DNA of 60,918 nt, from NCBI GenBank assembly GCA_029550925.1, contig JAKPGL010000076.1, positions 1-60,918 of the forward strand. The letters run 5' to 3'. The translations under genes and the position numbers were made by a program. The stretch's first letter is position 1. Every line of letters starts with the position of its first letter. This DNA is from Planctomycetota bacterium. Lineage in GTDB: Bacteria > Planctomycetota > Planctomycetia > Pirellulales > Thermoguttaceae. Positions 14,703 to 60,918 of the stretch are shown here, piece by piece. Under the pieces are notes generated by a model, which saw only the letters and a program-made list of their open reading frames with translations, made no database searches and was not told where the DNA came from.

Positions 14703-14814
14703 GGGTTTTTCCTCCCGGAAAGCATGGTAACGCCAGACTGCCTGAACGCCTCTACGCTCCTTCCTCTGTTTGGCCAGCATACGGTAGCGGCTAGCAGAAT
14801 GCAACAACGCCGCC

Positions 14815-14994
14815 GTAACGCCGGCTGTTAGCCGGCGAATGACTCAGGCTGGACAGCCTAAGCTACGTAACGTCGGCTGTTAGCGGGCGATTGACTCAGG
14901 CTGGACAGCCTAAGCTACGTAACGCCCGCTGTTAGCGGGCGAATGACTCAGGCTGGACAGCCTAAGTTACGTAACGTCGGCTGTTGGCCGGCGC
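14815..14994. repeat. Family C hairpin array, 52-bp units
   Basis: Three complete 52-bp tandem units (14815, 14867, 14919) and half of a fourth. Each unit holds two hairpins: GCCGGC-TGTTA-GCCGGC type, then AGGCTGGACAGCCT, followed by the linker AAGCTAC. The first stem changes between units (GCCCGC pairs with GCGGGC in unit 3) while the TGTTA loop is kept; in unit 2 the arms are only partly complementary. It lies in the gap before the GH20-like gene's upstream side. Related arrays are at 51216 and 59016. Confidence 0.85.
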
Positions 14995-16671: not shown

Positions 16672-18057
16672 TCAGAGGGCATGCAACATGCCGAGCTTTT
16701 TCATTTTGTTATAGAGGGTAACCCGACTGATGCCCAGTTCCCGGGCGGTTTCGCTGCGGCGGTAATTGTTTCGTTGGAGGGTTTCTTCGATAATGCGGCG
16801 TTCCACCTGACTGAGACGTTCTTCGAGACTCAAAGGTCGCTGCCGATCAGAACCCTGCGCCGATCGATTTCCCCCGGCCGGTCGCATCGCACTGGGCAGG
16901 TCGGCCAGAGTCAACACGCCATCCCGACAGTAAAGCACCGCCCGACGGATCACATTTTCCAATTCCCGGATATTGCCCGGCCAAGGATATTGTCGCAAGG
17001 CGGCCAAAAAGTCCGGTTCAATGTGTTTGAGTTCGATCTGATGGCTCCGGCTCTGTTCGACGGCAAATCGGCGGGCCAAATACTCGATGTCCCAAGGCCG
17101 TTCCCGCAACGGCGGCAAATGAAAACTCAACGTGTTTAGCCGATAATACAAGTCCATGCGGAACTTGTCCGCTTTGACCAGTTTTTCCAAGTCGATATTC
17201 GAGGCGGCAATGAGCCGGGCGTGCGAAATCCGCGTGTCGTTGGAGCCGACCGGTTCATACTCGCCCGTTTCGATCACCCGCAACAGCTTGGCCTGCTGTT
17301 TGGGCGCCAACACGTCGATTTCGTCCAGAAGCAAGGTGCCGCGGTCCGCAGCGGCGAACTTGCCCGGCTTGTCCGTATCCGCACCGGTAAAGGCGCCTTT
17401 GACATAGCCGAAAAGCTCGCTTTCGATCAGGTCCGGCGGTAACGCCCCACAGGCAACGGTCAAACACCGATGATTCCGCCGAGGCGATAGCTCGTGAATC
17501 AGCTGGGCCAAATACGTCTTGCCGCTGCCCGTCTCGCCGATAAGCAGGATGGTTACCTCATGGGCGGCGGCCACCTTCAACTCCTCGAACATCTCAAACA
17601 TCGAAGGAGCAAAGGTAACCAACGAGCGGGTCGTGCCGCGCAATACCCGATAGGGTAAACCGGCAAAATGGCTCAACAACTCCGAATCCAGCCCCAAATC
17701 GTCCTCCACCAAGAGCCGATCCAGCCGAGTAAATTCCTCCGGAAGATACAACACTTCACGAACCCACCGCGAAAGATGCTCCACGGTTTCCGGAGGGCAT
17801 TCCGGTTCGACCAAACCATAGATGGGGGCGGTGGCCACCGAGCGGCGAATCTGAGCCAACCATTTATTGCTGGTGTGCCCGTTGCCCACGGCCCGATCCA
17901 AATGCACCAAGACCGCCCGAATGGGGGTGTCTGCCAACTTGGCTTCTAGGTTCTCGATTCCGTCCAGTGGCATCAGCTCGAACTGAGCTTCAAACCGAGT
18001 CCGAAGTTGAGCAATCAAGGCGTCATTTCGACTGAGTACTACCAGATAGGGGTTCAT
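16672..18057 (-). CDS. Sigma-54-dependent transcriptional activator with atypical N-terminal domain
   Basis: 461-residue enhancer-binding protein. An N-terminal receiver-like domain of about 140 residues lacks a convincing phosphorylation-site context. The central AAA+ domain has Walker A GETGSGKT, the sigma-54 contact loop GAFTGAD, Walker B LLLDEID and the arginine region DLYYRLN. The C-terminal Fis-type helix-turn-helix reads RRSETARELGISRVTLYNK. It therefore activates RNA polymerase carrying sigma-54. The ATG has a GAGGAAA site upstream. No histidine kinase adjoins it, so the signal may be sensed through the N-terminal domain. It leads an operon with the membrane protein 14 bases downstream. 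Confidence 0.9.
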   Translation of the reverse strand: MNPYLVVLSRNDALIAQLRTRFEAQFELMPLDGIENLEAKLADTPIRAVLVHLDRAVGNGHTSNKWLAQIRRSVATAPIYGLVEPECPPETVEHLSRWVREVLYLPEEFTRLDRLLVEDDLGLDSELLSHFAGLPYRVLRGTTRSLVTFAPSMFEMFEELKVAAAHEVTILLIGETGSGKTYLAQLIHELSPRRNHRCLTVACGALPPDLIESELFGYVKGAFTGADTDKPGKFAAADRGTLLLDEIDVLAPKQQAKLLRVIETGEYEPVGSNDTRISHARLIAASNIDLEKLVKADKFRMDLYYRLNTLSFHLPPLRERPWDIEYLARRFAVEQSRSHQIELKHIEPDFLAALRQYPWPGNIRELENVIRRAVLYCRDGVLTLADLPSAMRPAGGNRSAQGSDRQRPLSLEERLSQVERRIIEETLQRNNYRRSETARELGISRVTLYNKMKKLGMLHAL

Positions 18058-19462: not shown

Positions 19463-19808
19463 GTACTCGGTTGGGCGATTCTGGGGGATTTTATAGGCGG
19501 ATGGACTTGGGCCGGTTGCGTTGTGGGACTTCAACCACTGTGGCTTGAGGATGCGATCGCAAGCGGTTGTAAGTCGGAGGCGACAACGCAACCGACTCGA
19601 GGGGCTTGGATTGTCCGAGAGACAGTTTTCTCCCTTCATGGCACGGGGCCGTCGGGATCGACCAAAAAAGTCAACTATTTTGACAAAATATGTCCTTGAC
19701 GAGATTCCGGGGCGGGGTCAAGGTAAAGGGAAACGTTCGGCGGCTTTTTATGGTATTGCTGGGAGAAGATGGCCAAAGGGGCCGGGCCGGGGAGATACTG
19801 TATTGTAC

Positions 19809-19827
19809 GCCAGTCTGTTAGACTGGC
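19809..19827 (+). repeat. Solitary family C-type hairpin in the 5' leader of the glycosidase gene
   Basis: A perfect 7-bp stem GCCAGTC-TGTTA-GACTGGC, 68 bases before the start codon at 19895. It has the same loop as the family C array hairpins and is followed, as at 51401, by a GAGTAACAACC-like sequence. It may be a solitary remnant of the repeat or a leader structure. Confidence 0.6.
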
Positions 19828-19894
19828 TTGGTCCCCTGGCGGAGTAACAACCTACCGTTGGACAGACGACGTTTGGGTACAAGGAGACTTTCCT

Positions 19895-38431: not shown

Positions 38432-38547
38432 CCCTCTGAGAAGACGTTCCGTCAAGTCCTGATCGGCTTCTGTTGGTGGCTCAATCGCCCATATTGGGTC
38501 AATCGGCCATATTTTGTCCTTCCCGCCCTAGCGGCCCTCCCGGCGTC

Positions 38548-38652
38548 TGCTGAATTGTCCTTCCCGCACAAGCAGCAGTGCAGGCGCCCGCTGAATTGTC
38601 ATCCCCGCGCAGACGGCAGTGGAGGAATCTGCTGAATTGTCATTCCCGTACC
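38548..38652. repeat. 41-bp tandem repeat
   Basis: Two full 41-bp units starting at 38548 and 38589 and a partial third at 38630, each beginning TGCTGAATTGTC(A/C)TTCCCG. It lies in the 960-base gene-poor gap after the YchF-like gene; the rest of this gap (38432-39170) has no recognisable gene. Confidence 0.6.
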
Positions 38653-41131: not shown

Positions 41132-41250
41132 CCCCCTCACCCGGCCTGCTAGCGCAGGCCCCCTCTCCCGCGGAGGGGCGAGGGTGGGTCCCCCCCTCAC
41201 CCGGCCTGCTAACGCAGGCCACCCTCTCCCACCGCGGGAAAGGGTGGCGG
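41132..41250. repeat. Family D repeat, copy 2 (tandem)
   Basis: Two consecutive units (near 41132 and 41194), each CCCCTCACCCGGCCTGCTA-CGCAGGCC followed by a CCCTCTCCC...GGGA stem, in the 212-base gap between convergent kinase and alpha-2-macroglobulin genes. It may serve as a bidirectional 3'-end structure. Confidence 0.7.
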
Positions 41251-50841: not shown

Positions 50842-52036
50842 CTTCTCAGGTCCTTCCGAAAGTTTGTGACGGAAAAAAATGACCGGTCAAAATGAAAAAA
50901 GATGAATATCATGGATTCCATGATACTTTTTCTACCGACTCAATGCAAACTATACCCCCCCCTTACTAAGGCAATCGTTCAACGTTCCGGACTTCTTTTC
51001 GATTACCCCTCGCAAGGCTACTCCAACAGACCCACGGACGGAACACCTGAAAGTACCGGATTGGCGATGCTCTTCGGCCGTATCCGTGCGAAGATCAATC
51101 CATGAGGGAACAATTCCGCCGGATGAAGCGACGTTTGATTTTCCATCTCCCATGATGGGAGAGAAACGAAAACATACCTCCCGCCATTCGGCGTCTTTGT
51201 CCCAAAGAAACTTATGTAACGCCGTCTGTCAGCCGGCGGCGATGTAACGCCCTCTGTTAGAGGGCGATTGTCTCAGGCTGGACAGCCTAAGCTACGGATT
51301 CTCTCAGGCTGGACAGCCTAAGCTACGTAACGTCGGCTGTCAGCCGGCGGCGTAACACCGTCTGTCAGACGGTCGGTTGCCAGCGTCTCTTTGCTCAAGC
51401 CAGTCAAACAGACTGGGTTACAACCTACTATCAGGAATAGGTTGGAAGAGGAAACGTGGAAAGCGAATCCGTGGTTTTGCCAATCCCCCAAAGAGGGTGG
51501 GGATTTCTTTCCATCCCTCTATAGATTTAATATAGCCCCATCTTTGGATGGATGCGATCCTCTTTTCTCGTTTTTTACCTGAAAAGCCTACATTGCCGCT
51601 CCCTCTCAAATCAGATACAGTGGTGGGAACGTCCGCCGGTTTCGACAAACGGCGCTGGGACGCTAAAAGTTATAACTACTTAAATAGCAATAGGTTAGGA
51701 TAGTTTTCCCTGCCAGTTTTCGGAAAGTCGAACCACAGAAAAAGATCCTGAACAGGTTCACCGGTGGGGGAGATGGTTTCTCTTGTCCCCTCTTTTAGTG
51801 GGGGAATGTATTACAAAATCCCTTTCCGATGCCGGGAGATAAGGATGCCTTCTCAAAAAGTCTTCTTTTTTCCCAGGCGGGCTGGAGAAAGGAGAGGCGA
51901 GAGGATAAGGCTAGGACGCCCAACCTCTCAAGGTTCGTCCCACATGGGCGTCGGCAAAAGGAACATGGCCCTGCTGGGCAGTCTCCGGTACGATTAGATG
52001 ACTTTCTATACTTCATTTCTCTCTATAGGAGGGCTT
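50842..52036. other. 1.2-kb intergenic region holding a family C array
   Basis: No credible gene. Besides the hairpin array at 51216-51424, 51620-51660 contains a GC-rich foldable stretch with GGTTTCGAC, discussed and rejected as tmRNA. The remaining sequence is AT-rich and contains the promoter for the cyclophilin gene. Confidence 0.4.
51216..51424. repeat. Family C hairpin array, second locus
   Basis: About five short hairpins of the GTAACGCC...GGC type with loops TGTCA or TGTTA (stems GTC/GGC-like, GCCCTC with GAGGGC, CCGTC with GACGG). They are interleaved with two AGGCTGGACAGCCTAAGCTAC units and closed by GCCAGTC-AAACA-GACTGG followed by GTTACAACC. It lacks the strict 52-bp period of 14815-14994. 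Confidence 0.8.
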
Positions 52037-56521: not shown

Positions 56522-57923
56522 CGAACCAAGCATCTGTTGGGGACTCCAGCGGCTGGCCCAACAAATGGGACATACCGCAACCACAGCGGCCTCGGCCGAA
56601 CAGGCGCTGCCGCTAGCCCGCCAACATCGGCCGGATGCGGTCGTCATGGACGTGCGATTGCCGGGTATGGACGGCCTGACGGCCCTGAAAATGCTCCATG
56701 CCGAACTGGGGCCCATGCCGGTCATCGTCATTACCGCCTTCGGCGATTTGGCCGTCGCAGTAGAAGCAGTACGAAGCGGCGCCTTTGACTATCTGACGAA
56801 ACCTTTTGAACTGAAGGCGGCCGAACGCGCCCTCCACCGGGCCTTGGAAAGCGCTCAACGCCCCGCCAAGGCGGACGCTCCCCCCGCCGCCGGTGCGACG
56901 GCTGAAGACCAAATCGTCGGCCGATCGCCCATCATGCAAGAACTTTTCAAACGCATCGCCCTGGTCGCCCCGACCGAGGCCTGCGTCCATCTGCACGGCC
57001 AGAGCGGCACAGGAAAAGAATTGGTGGCCCGGGCGCTGCACCGATATAGCCGACGGAAAGACAGACCTTTTGTCGCCGTGAATCTGGCCGCCCTGAGCCC
57101 TACCTTGATCGAGAGCGAACTTTTCGGCCATACCGAGGGAGCGTTTACCGGAGCAGATCGGCCACGTAAAGGACTTCTGGAGGCGGCCGACGGCGGCACG
57201 CTCTTTCTCGACGAAGTGGCCGACATCCCTCAGGCCGTCCAGACTAAACTCCTTCGCGCCCTCGAATACGGCGAGGTGCTCCCGGTGGGAGCGGATCGGC
57301 CCCGCCGGGTGGATTTCCGTTTGATTACCGCCACCAATCGAGACCTCCGCCGCCGGATGGCCGAGGGAAAGTTCCGCCATGACCTTTACTATCGGATCTG
57401 TACCTTCGACATCGAAATCCCGCCGTTGGCCCAACGTCGGGACGACATTCCGGAACTGGTAGAACATTTCGTGAATCTTCTGTCGGCCAAACACGGCCTG
57501 CCGCGGCCCGCCGTGGCCCCAGAGACGATGCAGGAACTTCTGCGTCGGCCGTGGCACGGCAATGTGCGAGAATTGCGCAATACGATGGAACACGCACTGG
57601 TGCTGGCCCGGGGGAATATCATCTTGCCGGAACATCTGCCGCCGCCGGCCAGTCCCTCGCCGCCCGAACTTTCCCAGGAGGACTCCCTCCAAATGTTGCT
57701 CCGCCAGTGGGCCGAGACAGAACTCGGCCGAACCCCAGAAACAGCAAATGTTTACGAAAAGTTTCTCCAATTAGTGGAGCCGCCCCTCCTGGAGGCGGCC
57801 TTGAAACAGGCCCAGGGCCAATATGCGGCCGCCGCCCGACGATTGGGCCTACACCGAATCACCCTACGGAAAAAACTCCAGCAGTACGGAATCTCGAAAT
57901 CTGGTAACACTTCGGCCGAATGA
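56496..57923 (+). CDS. NtrC-family sigma-54-dependent response regulator
   Basis: 475 residues: a receiver with Asp52 in VVMDVRLPGMDG and conserved Thr/Lys (ITAFGD, YLTKPF), AAA+ domain with Walker A GQSGTGKE, GAFTGAD loop, Walker B LFLDEVAD, and Fis-type HTH (AAARRLGLHRITLRKKLQQYG). It activates sigma-54 promoters when phosphorylated by the overlapping kinase. The last six codons and the stop (from 57904) lie inside a family B repeat terminus, so the natural C-terminus was probably replaced by element sequence; the HTH itself is intact. Confidence 0.94.
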   Translation: MAHLLIVDDEPSICWGLQRLAQQMGHTATTAASAEQALPLARQHRPDAVVMDVRLPGMDGLTALKMLHAELGPMPVIVITAFGDLAVAVEAVRSGAFDYLTKPFELKAAERALHRALESAQRPAKADAPPAAGATAEDQIVGRSPIMQELFKRIALVAPTEACVHLHGQSGTGKELVARALHRYSRRKDRPFVAVNLAALSPTLIESELFGHTEGAFTGADRPRKGLLEAADGGTLFLDEVADIPQAVQTKLLRALEYGEVLPVGADRPRRVDFRLITATNRDLRRRMAEGKFRHDLYYRICTFDIEIPPLAQRRDDIPELVEHFVNLLSAKHGLPRPAVAPETMQELLRRPWHGNVRELRNTMEHALVLARGNIILPEHLPPPASPSPPELSQEDSLQMLLRQWAETELGRTPETANVYEKFLQLVEPPLLEAALKQAQGQYAAAARRLGLHRITLRKKLQQYGISKSGNTSAE

Positions 57924-58065
57924 GGCAACCAGGAATTCCTACGCTAGCAGAAATCCAGTTTTTTCGATGGATTTGTGCTCTCTGGATTCCGCTTACGCAG
58001 GAATGACACTTTGGAGGTACTCTCCCTAGAAAACAGGAACTTACTTCACTCGGCTGAAATGTTGC
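57904..58065. repeat. Family B inverted-repeat element, copy 3, overlapping a gene end
   Basis: 162 bp from GTAACACTTCGGCCGAATGA to CTCGGCTGAAATGTTGC, with an internal TGGATTCCGCTTACGCAGGA REP-like segment. The left end matches the canonical family B terminus at about 17 of 20 positions and contains the TGA stop of the NtrC gene. Confidence 0.72.
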
Positions 58066-58166
58066 GAAATCTACTTCCAGCCCGCCCGAAAGACCGGAAA
58101 CTTCCTAAAACCGCCTGGGTGAATTCACGGGAGCTTTCCCAAGATAAGGCGCCCCATTCCCCCAAT

Positions 58167-59015: not shown

Positions 59016-59244
59016 CGGCGGCTGTCAAGCCGGTAGCGTCGGCTGTTAGCCGGCGACTCAGCCTAGACAGGCTAAGCTACGTAACGCCGGCTGTCAGCCG
59101 GCGATGTAATGCCCTCTGTTAGAGAGCGAATGGCTCAGGCTAGACAGCCTAAGCTACGGATTGGCTCAGCCTGGACAGGCTAAGTTACGTAGCGTCGACC
59201 GTCAGCCGGTTGACAGGCCAATCTAACAGATTGAGTTACAAGAT
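59016..59244. repeat. Family C hairpin array, third locus
   Basis: Short hairpins as at 14815 and 51216, with changed stems: GTCGGCTGTTAGCCGGC, GCCGGCTGTCAGCCGGC, and second hairpins that appear as AGCCTAGACAGGCT, AGGCTAGACAGCCT and AGCCTGGACAGGCT. It closes with CCAATC-TAACA-GATTG and GAGTTACAAG. Confidence 0.82.
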
Positions 59245-59783: not shown

Positions 59784-60918
59784 ATGAGAGTCCCGTTAGG
59801 TGTGCCTATCTTGGCTGCCATACTGACAGTTCTGTCAGTCCAGGCAGCCGATGCTGCCTATTGTGGGGCGGCCCGCTACCGGTGCGGCAAACCCGTCTGT
59901 TGCGAAACCCAATGCTGCACCGTCATGAAGACCTGCAAACAGATCGTTTGGGAAAAACAGCAGGTCACTTGCTACAAGACGGTTTCCGAACCCGTCGTTG
60001 TACCCAAACAGGTTACTTGCACCAAGTGGGTACCCGAAACCCAGTACCGAGAATGCACCTACACCGTGATGAAGCCGGTCTGGGAAACCCGGACCAAAGA
60101 AATCTGCTACACGGTCTGCAAACCGGTCTGGGAAACCCGGACGAAGACCTACACCGTGATGAAACCGGTTTGGGAAACCCGGACCAAGGAAATCTGCTAC
60201 ACGGTGATGAAGCCGGTCTATGAGACCCGGACGAAGACCTACACGGTGATGAAGCCGGTCTGGGAAACCCGGACCAAGGAAATCTGCTACACCGTCTGCA
60301 AGCCGGTCTGGGAAACCCGAACCAAGGAAATCTGCTACACGGTGATGAAGCCGGTCTATGAGACCCGCGAGCGCGAGGTTTGCTATACGGTCTGCAAGCC
60401 GGTCAAATACACCAAGAAGGTCCAGGTGTGCAGCGGCCGGTGGGAGACCCAGGTGATTGAAAAACCCGGTCCGGTGGTGAAAAAGTGCATCCAAGAGCCG
60501 GGCACGTGGGTGTGGGATCCGTGTACTTGTCGGGCTGTGTATTGCCCCGGCGAAACGAAGGTCGTCGAGGTTCAGTGCCCGCCCATTCGATGCGTGAAAA
60601 AAGTCTGGGTCCCCGAAGTGGTCGAAAAAGAGATCGAATGCGTTAAATATGTGGCCGAGACCTGTGTAAAGAAAGTTCCTTATACGGTCTGCAAGATGGT
60701 ACCCGAGCAACGGGTCAAGACCTGCACCTACCAGGTGTGCAAGATGGTGCCGGAAGAGCGGACCTGCACCTATACGGTCTGCAAGATGGTGCCTGAGCAG
60801 CGGGTCAAGACCTGCACCTACCAGGTGTGCAAGATGGTGCCGGAAGAACGGACCTGCACCTACACGGTCTGCAAGATGGTGCCCGAGCAACGGGTCAAGA
60901 CCTGCACCTACCAGGTGT
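59784..60918 (+). CDS. YTV-repeat cysteine-rich secreted surface protein, 3'-truncated by window edge
   Basis: 378 residues visible; the frame is open to the last base. The ATG has GAAGGAGG upstream and opens into a signal peptide (about 1-24). The rest is built of short repeats centred on YTV: YTVMKPVWETRTK / CYTVCKPVYETR units (about 95-210), a cysteine-rich central segment, then a 30-residue repeat (90-bp DNA period at 60681, 60771, 60861) reading YTVCKMVPEQRVKTCTYQVCK. Cys, Val, Lys and Thr dominate. YTV-domain proteins were described from Rhodopirellula baltica as insoluble cell-wall proteins, so a disulfide-linked envelope role is inferred. Confidence 0.9.
   Translation, partial: MRVPLGVPILAAILTVLSVQAADAAYCGAARYRCGKPVCCETQCCTVMKTCKQIVWEKQQVTCYKTVSEPVVVPKQVTCTKWVPETQYRECTYTVMKPVWETRTKEICYTVCKPVWETRTKTYTVMKPVWETRTKEICYTVMKPVYETRTKTYTVMKPVWETRTKEICYTVCKPVWETRTKEICYTVMKPVYETREREVCYTVCKPVKYTKKVQVCSGRWETQVIEKPGPVVKKCIQEPGTWVWDPCTCRAVYCPGETKVVEVQCPPIRCVKKVWVPEVVEKEIECVKYVAETCVKKVPYTVCKMVPEQRVKTCTYQVCKMVPEERTCTYTVCKMVPEQRVKTCTYQVCKMVPEERTCTYTVCKMVPEQRVKTCTYQV

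Follow-up and report, generated by a model that had tools for sequence, protein, structure and literature searches.

The window analysed here, a stretch of 60,918 nucleotides from a Planctomycetota bacterium, carries three arrays of short hairpins, at 14815, 51216 and 59016, and a solitary copy at 19805–19827. These had been listed in an earlier note, and both the sites and the stems quoted there were found as described. All hairpins follow one grammar on both strands: the tag GTA[AG]C is followed by a 6-nt arm with C as its last letter, by a loop, the returning arm and usually G. The loop is mostly TGTYA or TGTYYA, and a few copies have a different tag or loop; it is nearly constant across copies, as had been remarked, and so is the tag. 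The H1 form reads GTAAC GCCGGC TGTTA GCCGGC G and the H2 form GTARC TTAGGC TGTCCA GCCTGA G. Each hairpin measures 23–24 nt, with a 7-bp stem and a 5–6-nt loop, and lies within the 20–40 bp of the short palindromes of REP/BIME elements. In a tally of 150 hairpins the tag was GTAAC in 87, GTAGC in 51 and another sequence in 12.

In the first array, Tandem Repeats Finder reports a repeat at 14814–14993 with a period of 52, 3.5 copies and 91% matches, and the 52-bp doublet consists of the hairpin at 14815..14837 (+) with that at 14843..14866 (−). The separate "second hairpin" of the earlier note is present, but it represents the same element read from the other strand (H2); its flip in both arms is real, yet confined to pair 5, a single base pair. 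In the solitary copy GTACG replaces the GTARC tag, and this copy was not reported by covariance model R1 at E≤1; a degenerate inverted partner is visible by eye at about 19851–19880. Diverged hairpins resembling CCAGTC/GACTGG terminate two of the arrays (51399–51421, 59217–59239), and the solitary copy has the same stem type. Model R1 was built from hairpins selected for pairing, and its pair counts were excluded as evidence; its genome counts are lower bounds (132–150 candidates scored per genome).

Table 1. Hairpins of the window, with strand and means of recognition (R1, match of the covariance model).
Feature	Position	Strand	Basis
H1 hairpin, tag GTAAC, arms GCCGGC/GCCGGC, loop TGTTA	14815..14837	+	sequence, R1 match
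H2 hairpin, tag GTAGC, arms TTAGGC/GCCTGA, loop TGTCCA	14843..14866	−	sequence, R1, DNA folding
H1 hairpin, arm-swap copy, two arm types GTCGGC + GCGGGC, one mismatch	14867..14889	+	sequence, R1
H2 hairpin	14895..14918	−	sequence, R1
H1 hairpin, arms GCCCGC/GCGGGC	14919..14941	+	sequence, R1
H2 hairpin, tag GTAAC	14947..14970	−	sequence, R1
H1 hairpin, loop TGTTG, last in array	14971..14993	+	sequence, R1
Solitary decayed copy, tag GTACG, stem GCCAGTC/GACTGGC	19805..19827	+	read by eye
H1 hairpin, arms GCCGTC/GCCGGC, arm-swap copy	51216..51238	+	sequence, R1
H1 hairpin, arms GCCCTC/GAGGGC	51244..51266	+	sequence, R1
H2 hairpin	51272..51295	−	sequence, R1
H2 hairpin	51303..51326	−	sequence, R1
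H1 hairpin, head to head with preceding H2	51327..51349	+	sequence, R1
H1 hairpin, arms ACCGTC/GACGGT	51352..51374	+	sequence, R1
Diverged hairpin, CCAGTC/GACTGG type, array end	51399..51421	−	R1 (E 0.12), by eye
H1 hairpin	59033..59055	+	sequence, R1
H2 hairpin, arms TTAGCC/GGCTGA, pair 5 flipped	59057..59080	−	sequence, R1
H1 hairpin, loop TGTCA	59081..59103	+	sequence, R1
H1-like hairpin, tag GTAAT, arms GCCCTC/GAGAGC	59106..59128	+	sequence; below R1 reporting (E≤1)
H2 hairpin	59134..59157	−	sequence, R1
H2 hairpin, arms TTAGCC/GGCTGA	59165..59188	−	sequence, R1
Diverged hairpin, TCAATC/GATTGG, array end	59217..59239	−	sequence; below R1 reporting (E≤1)

Copies were counted with a pairing-blind pattern, GTARCNNNNNCTGTN{1,3}AG, which comprises the tag, the arm end and half of the loop and demands no pairing; the reversed pattern served as control. 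This genome (4.9 Mb, 97.5% complete) gave 486 matches, compared with 10 for the control, and thus holds about 480 hairpin copies. The two other genomes of the genus gave 69 matches (G001; control 16) and 24 matches (G002; control 17), the latter only modestly above its own control, though above the other relatives and with good hairpins at a shared site. None of 96 further relatives exceeded 14 matches, and none of 391 further genomes from the phylum exceeded 25; judged by eye, these genomes were mostly below their own controls, with few small exceptions such as G235 (12 vs 3). Within the genomes searched, the family appears confined to one genus. An exact H2 hairpin had no match in a wider collection of genome contigs, a result that says little because this collection may omit this genome and near ones, and the sister species have other stems.

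For detailed analysis, 67 segments (281 kb) containing 367 sites in 87 clusters were fetched, after removal of the duplicate loci L019–L022; 119 of the 486 pattern matches lie outside these sites, and some matches share a start. In 86 of the 87 clusters there was no overlap of more than 30 bp with genes predicted by our own codon-usage calls, so that the copies are both numerous and extragenic, as REP/BIME elements are. Arrays are also found close (a few hundred bases at most) to the starts of contigs C16, C57, C78, C145 and C148 of this genome (G000) and to the ends of its contigs C70, C140, C145, C173 and C181; some were therefore probably cut, and the copy number is probably underestimated. 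As read from the sequences, the genes between neighbouring clusters are differing, unrelated host genes, among them what we take to be CTP synthase and SAICAR synthase. An insertion sequence bounded by the arrays was considered and is not supported, given these differing host genes and no mobile family among the commonest 25 of the 228 Pfam families found beside the clusters.

Neighbouring hairpins are arranged in a strict manner. Among the fetched sites, 92 tail-to-tail pairs lie within 10 nt of each other, 91 of them joining H1 to H2 and one joining H2 to an unclassed hairpin, with a spacer of 4–6 nt in 84 of the 92; among close neighbours, hairpins of the same kind (H1 or H2) never faced each other. 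Doublets in turn abut head to head, at a distance of 0 nt, in 58 contacts, which produces the 52-bp period, and the result is a mosaic of alternating orientation, as in BIMEs. Doublet members had fewer mismatches per hairpin than the rest, that is, all hairpins outside tail-to-tail doublets and not strict singles (mean 0.13 vs 0.38, p=0.003), and all six pairs were formed in 164 of 184 doublet members, compared with 143 of 183 of the rest. Thus, the inverted doublet behaves as the unit and decays less, as in REPINs. Identical hairpins were commoner within arrays than between them (H1, 0.191 vs 0.036; H2, 0.246 vs 0.168), and one H2 arm pair is common to 115 of the 367 copies; with so many copies sharing the same arms, the expansion looks recent. 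The common tag, the common loop and the fixed pairing of H1 with H2 argue against independent insertion of palindromes, the outcome that the earlier note had set against its own reading.

All six stem pairs were formed in 307 of the 367 pairing-blind sites, counting G.T as a pair and with the innermost pair fixed by the pattern. We then compared pairing with that obtained by shuffling the 3′ arms within H1 and within H2 (1000 shuffles, one row per array and sequence). In H1 (n=136), pair 4 was paired in 129 rows compared with 73.5 after shuffling (maximum 94), and pair 5 in 123 compared with 76.0 (maximum 92); in H2 (n=163), pair 5 was paired in 146 compared with 93.6 (maximum 110). Pairs 1–3 of H1 and pairs 1–4 of H2 showed no excess over shuffling because they are nearly invariant. 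When only unique sequences were counted, pairs 4 and 5 of H1 (n=66) still lay beyond all shuffles, and H2 (n=40) did not exceed the best shuffle (pair 5, 29 vs maximum 29; whole stem, 154 vs maximum 155). Since the copies are related by descent, these shuffles overstate significance. The compensatory changes reported earlier therefore stand beyond shuffling, clearly in H1 but in H2 only with copies of different arrays included; the statement that structure is conserved over sequence holds for the loop-proximal pairs only, the remaining pairs being conserved in sequence. In H1, both G and C at pair 4 occur together with each of A, C, G and T at pair 5, eight combinations in all, and with matching partners. 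On the other hand, among 54 hairpins that have one mismatch or two, 26 combine two arms of standard type, including the window copies at 14867 and 51216, so that mispairing often looks like arm exchange between copies. Part of the covariation may thus have been made by arm exchange or arm copying and not by selection on single mutations.

The hairpins recur in both other genomes of the genus examined, with other stems; recurrence in related species was one of the points on which the earlier note had said its claim could fail. The gap that holds the 14815 array is syntenic in G001 and G002 (genes 76–84% identical) and contains hairpins in both; R1 matches there have E values of 1.5e-4 and 0.67 in G001 and of 6.6e-6, 0.0013, 0.012 and 0.29 in G002. 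In the gaps matching the 51216 and 59016 arrays there was no R1 match at E≤1 in either sister, nor was there one upstream of the gene that follows the 19809 copy, whose left neighbour is not shared in G001. As far as seen, one of the four window sites appears to be shared across the genus and three appear private to this genome. The inner stems also differ between species. A GTC/GAC inner stem occurs in 34 of 50 sites of G001 (13 of 17 H1-like and 21 of 30 H2-like) and in 12 of 367 sites here (9 of 168 H1-like, 1 of 196 H2-like and 2 of 3 others), where GGC/GCC, CGC/GCG and GCC/GGC are usual; in G002 it was found in only 5 of 18. Fisher's test of G001 against this genome gives p of about 1e-28 (on 10/367), a value that is too small, as copies are not independent; the G001 sites were partly picked by the model built on this genome, a bias that works against the reported difference. 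A difference in the same inner stem of both H1 and H2 would be predicted by a single trans-acting factor that reads the two kinds, or by conversion between their cores. Two of the three diverged window hairpins carry loop-proximal GTC/GAC, which is today common in G001, a picture that would fit replacement of an older REP class.

RAYT/TnpA-REP transposases are members of the Y1 family (Pfam Y1_Tnp). No Y1_Tnp (PF01797) match was found in this genome, G001 or G002 at E≤0.001 or at E≤10, the first-pass filter of the loose search letting through 1–3 candidates per genome. Nor did a profile made from the Y1 proteins of relatives (11 sequences) match any of the three, although this profile is imperfectly sensitive and also missed G026, where PF01797 matches weakly. 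A Pfam search of the proteins adjoining the clusters (144 of the 145 neighbour genes of at least 240 bp, long proteins cut at 800 aa) revealed no transposase among the commonest 25 of 228 families. The Y1 family is present in 47 of 57 relatives outside the genus and absent from 10, so its absence is not rare; the three genus genomes are 92–97.5% complete, and at 97.5% for this genome a missed gene is possible. Looking for a Y1/RAYT gene flanked by REPs, the mark of a RAYT-mobilised REP (REPtron), yielded none, and the elements are for this reason filed as REP/BIME and not as RAYT-mobilised REPs.

The hairpins are a new population of the REP/BIME/REPIN kind and not an undescribed class of RNA. 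They are probably REP/BIME-type elements whose doublets were copied by an enzyme of the RAYT/TnpA-REP sort. In this mechanism, the doublets would be moved or copied as single-stranded DNA by the trans-acting enzyme, which would read the tag, the lower stem and the loop and so keep those parts fixed; loop-proximal pairs would change only when pairing is restored, and slippage or recombination would then lengthen the arrays and swap their arms. Since the genus yielded no Y1 transposase, this enzyme has probably disappeared recently, or else its gene sits in the few per cent of the genome that are missing from the assembly.

That the arrays are instead a structured RNA, transcribed from the flanks of genes, bound or processed when folded, and changing so as to keep the RNA fold, is very unlikely in our estimate. 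The compensatory changes would suit it, and so would the wobble at pair 2: among 361 copies counted, 221 show T.G there when read on the tag strand and one shows A.C (in G001, T.G at 27 of 30 H2-like sites); these counts omit hairpins with more than two mismatches (6 of 367 here, 4 of 50 in G001, 8 of 18 in G002). At the other pairs G.T and A.C were not clearly unequal (25 vs 13 copies; 17 vs 13 distinct arm pairs), so the choice of strand rests mainly on pair 2, and strand-specific wobble was dropped as a general test. H1 and H2, however, lie on opposite strands of one array, each with T.G on its own tag strand, and a single transcript would favour only one kind: in DNA folding, the tag strand of the H2 at 14843 gives 8 pairs (−4.5 kcal/mol) and the other strand, which is the H1 strand, 5 pairs (−3.6), and the two strands of the perfect H1 at 14815 are about equal (−11.2 and −10.6). 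Counted for the RNA reading are the co-directional gaps, where H1 pointed with the genes in 28 cases and against them in 15, which is not significant (p=0.066), and the position of clusters nearer to the end of the upstream gene (median 51 bp) than to the start of the next (111 bp). The 22 clusters in divergent and 8 in convergent gaps of the fetched segments are proportional to the space there (18.4 and 7.1 kb), and hence show no preference for gene ends; an apparent excess of divergent over convergent (p=0.016) was dropped, as divergent gaps have 2.6 times the space. No Rfam match at the gathering score was found in the window, and three of the four window sites were not found in the sister species. 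For the opposite strands, the lack of gene-end preference and the lack of an Rfam match, an undescribed RNA family is not favoured, and the "possibly undescribed structured repeat" of the earlier note must give way: a tag, a palindrome, an inverted doublet and an intergenic mosaic make up the described anatomy of REP/BIME/REPIN elements.

Neutral quasi-palindromes, multiplied by slippage and template switching that copy one arm onto the other with neither recognition nor selection, are an unlikely source. Such a process would account for the tandem arrays, for identical hairpins being commoner within than between arrays, for the arm-swap copies among nearly half of the mismatched hairpins (26/54), and for no transposase having been found. 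It leaves unexplained the dispersal of the same doublet over 87 fetched clusters, the conservation of the loop and of a tag that lies outside the stem, and the common T.G at pair 2; the better preservation of doublet members also speaks against it. Quite unlikely, too, is the bolder reading that this is a large, recently expanded REPIN-like population of a genus that has no Y1 at all, copied by another enzyme that reads the GTA[AG]-tagged hairpin and whose loop-proximal stem preference switched between species. Movement of the REP population by an enzyme outside the Y1 family we hold to be very improbable. Y1 was not found in 3 of 3 genus genomes against its presence in most other relatives (47 of 57), and among the genomes searched only that genus has the REP family. 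Against this, 10 of the 57 other relatives also have no Y1, there is no candidate gene beside the clusters among the commonest 25 of 228 Pfam families, and leftover REPs in genomes where the transposase is missing are already described in passages of PMC8049555 and PMC3686654.

In its anatomy the family stands next to several described systems, which we compare here by the passages of the cited papers that treat them. Tagged palindromes, inverted doublets and GT pairs are described for REPs (PMC3733652, PMC3116915, PMC2817692, PMC8266576, PMC6006769, PMC3686654, PMC8049555), and complementary stem variants of REP elements are in print in section 5 of PMC3733652 and a passage of PMC2817692. Closest are the GTAG-tagged REPs, a superfamily reported also from Planctomycetes (Di Nocera 2013, PMC3733652): in the passages on them they too are palindromes of 20–40 bp tagged at one end, intergenic, of high copy number, in oppositely oriented clusters, with stem sub-families that differ by complementary changes and with G.T pairs. 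Degeneracy of the GTAG tag is described there at positions 2 and 3 (PMC3733652), whereas here position 4 varies, the tag being GTAA or GTAG followed by C, with GTAA the commoner; our elements further differ from that account in the loop, mostly TGTYA/TGTYYA, in showing no gene-end preference and in their restriction to one genus among the genomes searched. REPs that have no partner enzyme are not new in kind, since the CGTC-tagged superfamily is reported without a dedicated transposase (PMC3733652); it differs in its tag, and some CGTC species are said there to have tyrosine transposase genes, which the repeats do not flank.

With REPINs and RAYT/TnpA-REP systems, as portrayed in parts of PMC3116915, PMC2817692 and PMC8266576, the family shares the outside-tagged inverted doublet, the better-kept doublets, the mosaic arrays and the complementary changes; it differs in that no RAYT/Y1 was detected in the genus and in its doublet, which is only 52 bp long and consists of two different hairpins. 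As in the BIMEs of E. coli (Y/Z REPs), two REP kinds alternate in inverted orientation. Unlike the E. coli REPs with their mismatch bulge (in a passage of PMC8266576), the stem here has mostly a single T.G or none. The sister REP classes in related genomes and the decay of replaced classes resemble the REP "orthoswitch" of Pseudomonas/Stenotrophomonas, as outlined in part of PMC3686654; here a switch would be deduced from the sister species and the diverged copies at array ends, with no RAYT to follow. Among papers searched by title or start of abstract, which left most subscription papers outside, none describes this GTA[AG]-tagged hairpin family. Two things are unusual: the GTAA-or-GTAG tag, and no detectable Y1 (RAYT-type) transposase in three genomes of the genus. 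The hairpins extend the known REPs by a well-sampled population of a planctomycete genus, and its three genomes allow shared sites, stem switches and decay to be traced. In sections of PMC3686654 and PMC8049555 the REPs that remain in RAYT-less genomes are thought to decay, and in the model given in the former, REPs are multiplied by their own active RAYT and by nothing else; the present population, which is large and seems young in a genus with no Y1 detected, is a natural test of that model (PMC3686654).

Other repeats and motifs lie in the same window. A stretch of ~170 bp at about 57897–58071 has more than 30 matches in G001 (73–82% identity) and several shorter ones in G002 (70–97%), and on sequence similarity it appears to be a separate dispersed repeat of the genus. 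The stretches at about 57003–57340 and 17240–17457 match other places in G001 and G002 several times, though more weakly, and may be domains of gene families. Just after the 51216 array, at about 51630–51660, there is a GGTTTCGACA stretch, which resembles a tmRNA motif; neither ARAGORN nor Rfam reported anything at this stretch near 51635. Tandem repeats at 41132–41247 and 38514–38648 (60-bp and 41-bp units) look unrelated to the hairpin family, and those at the window end, 60057–60404 and 60681–60918, have 48/90-bp units and probably code for a repetitive protein.
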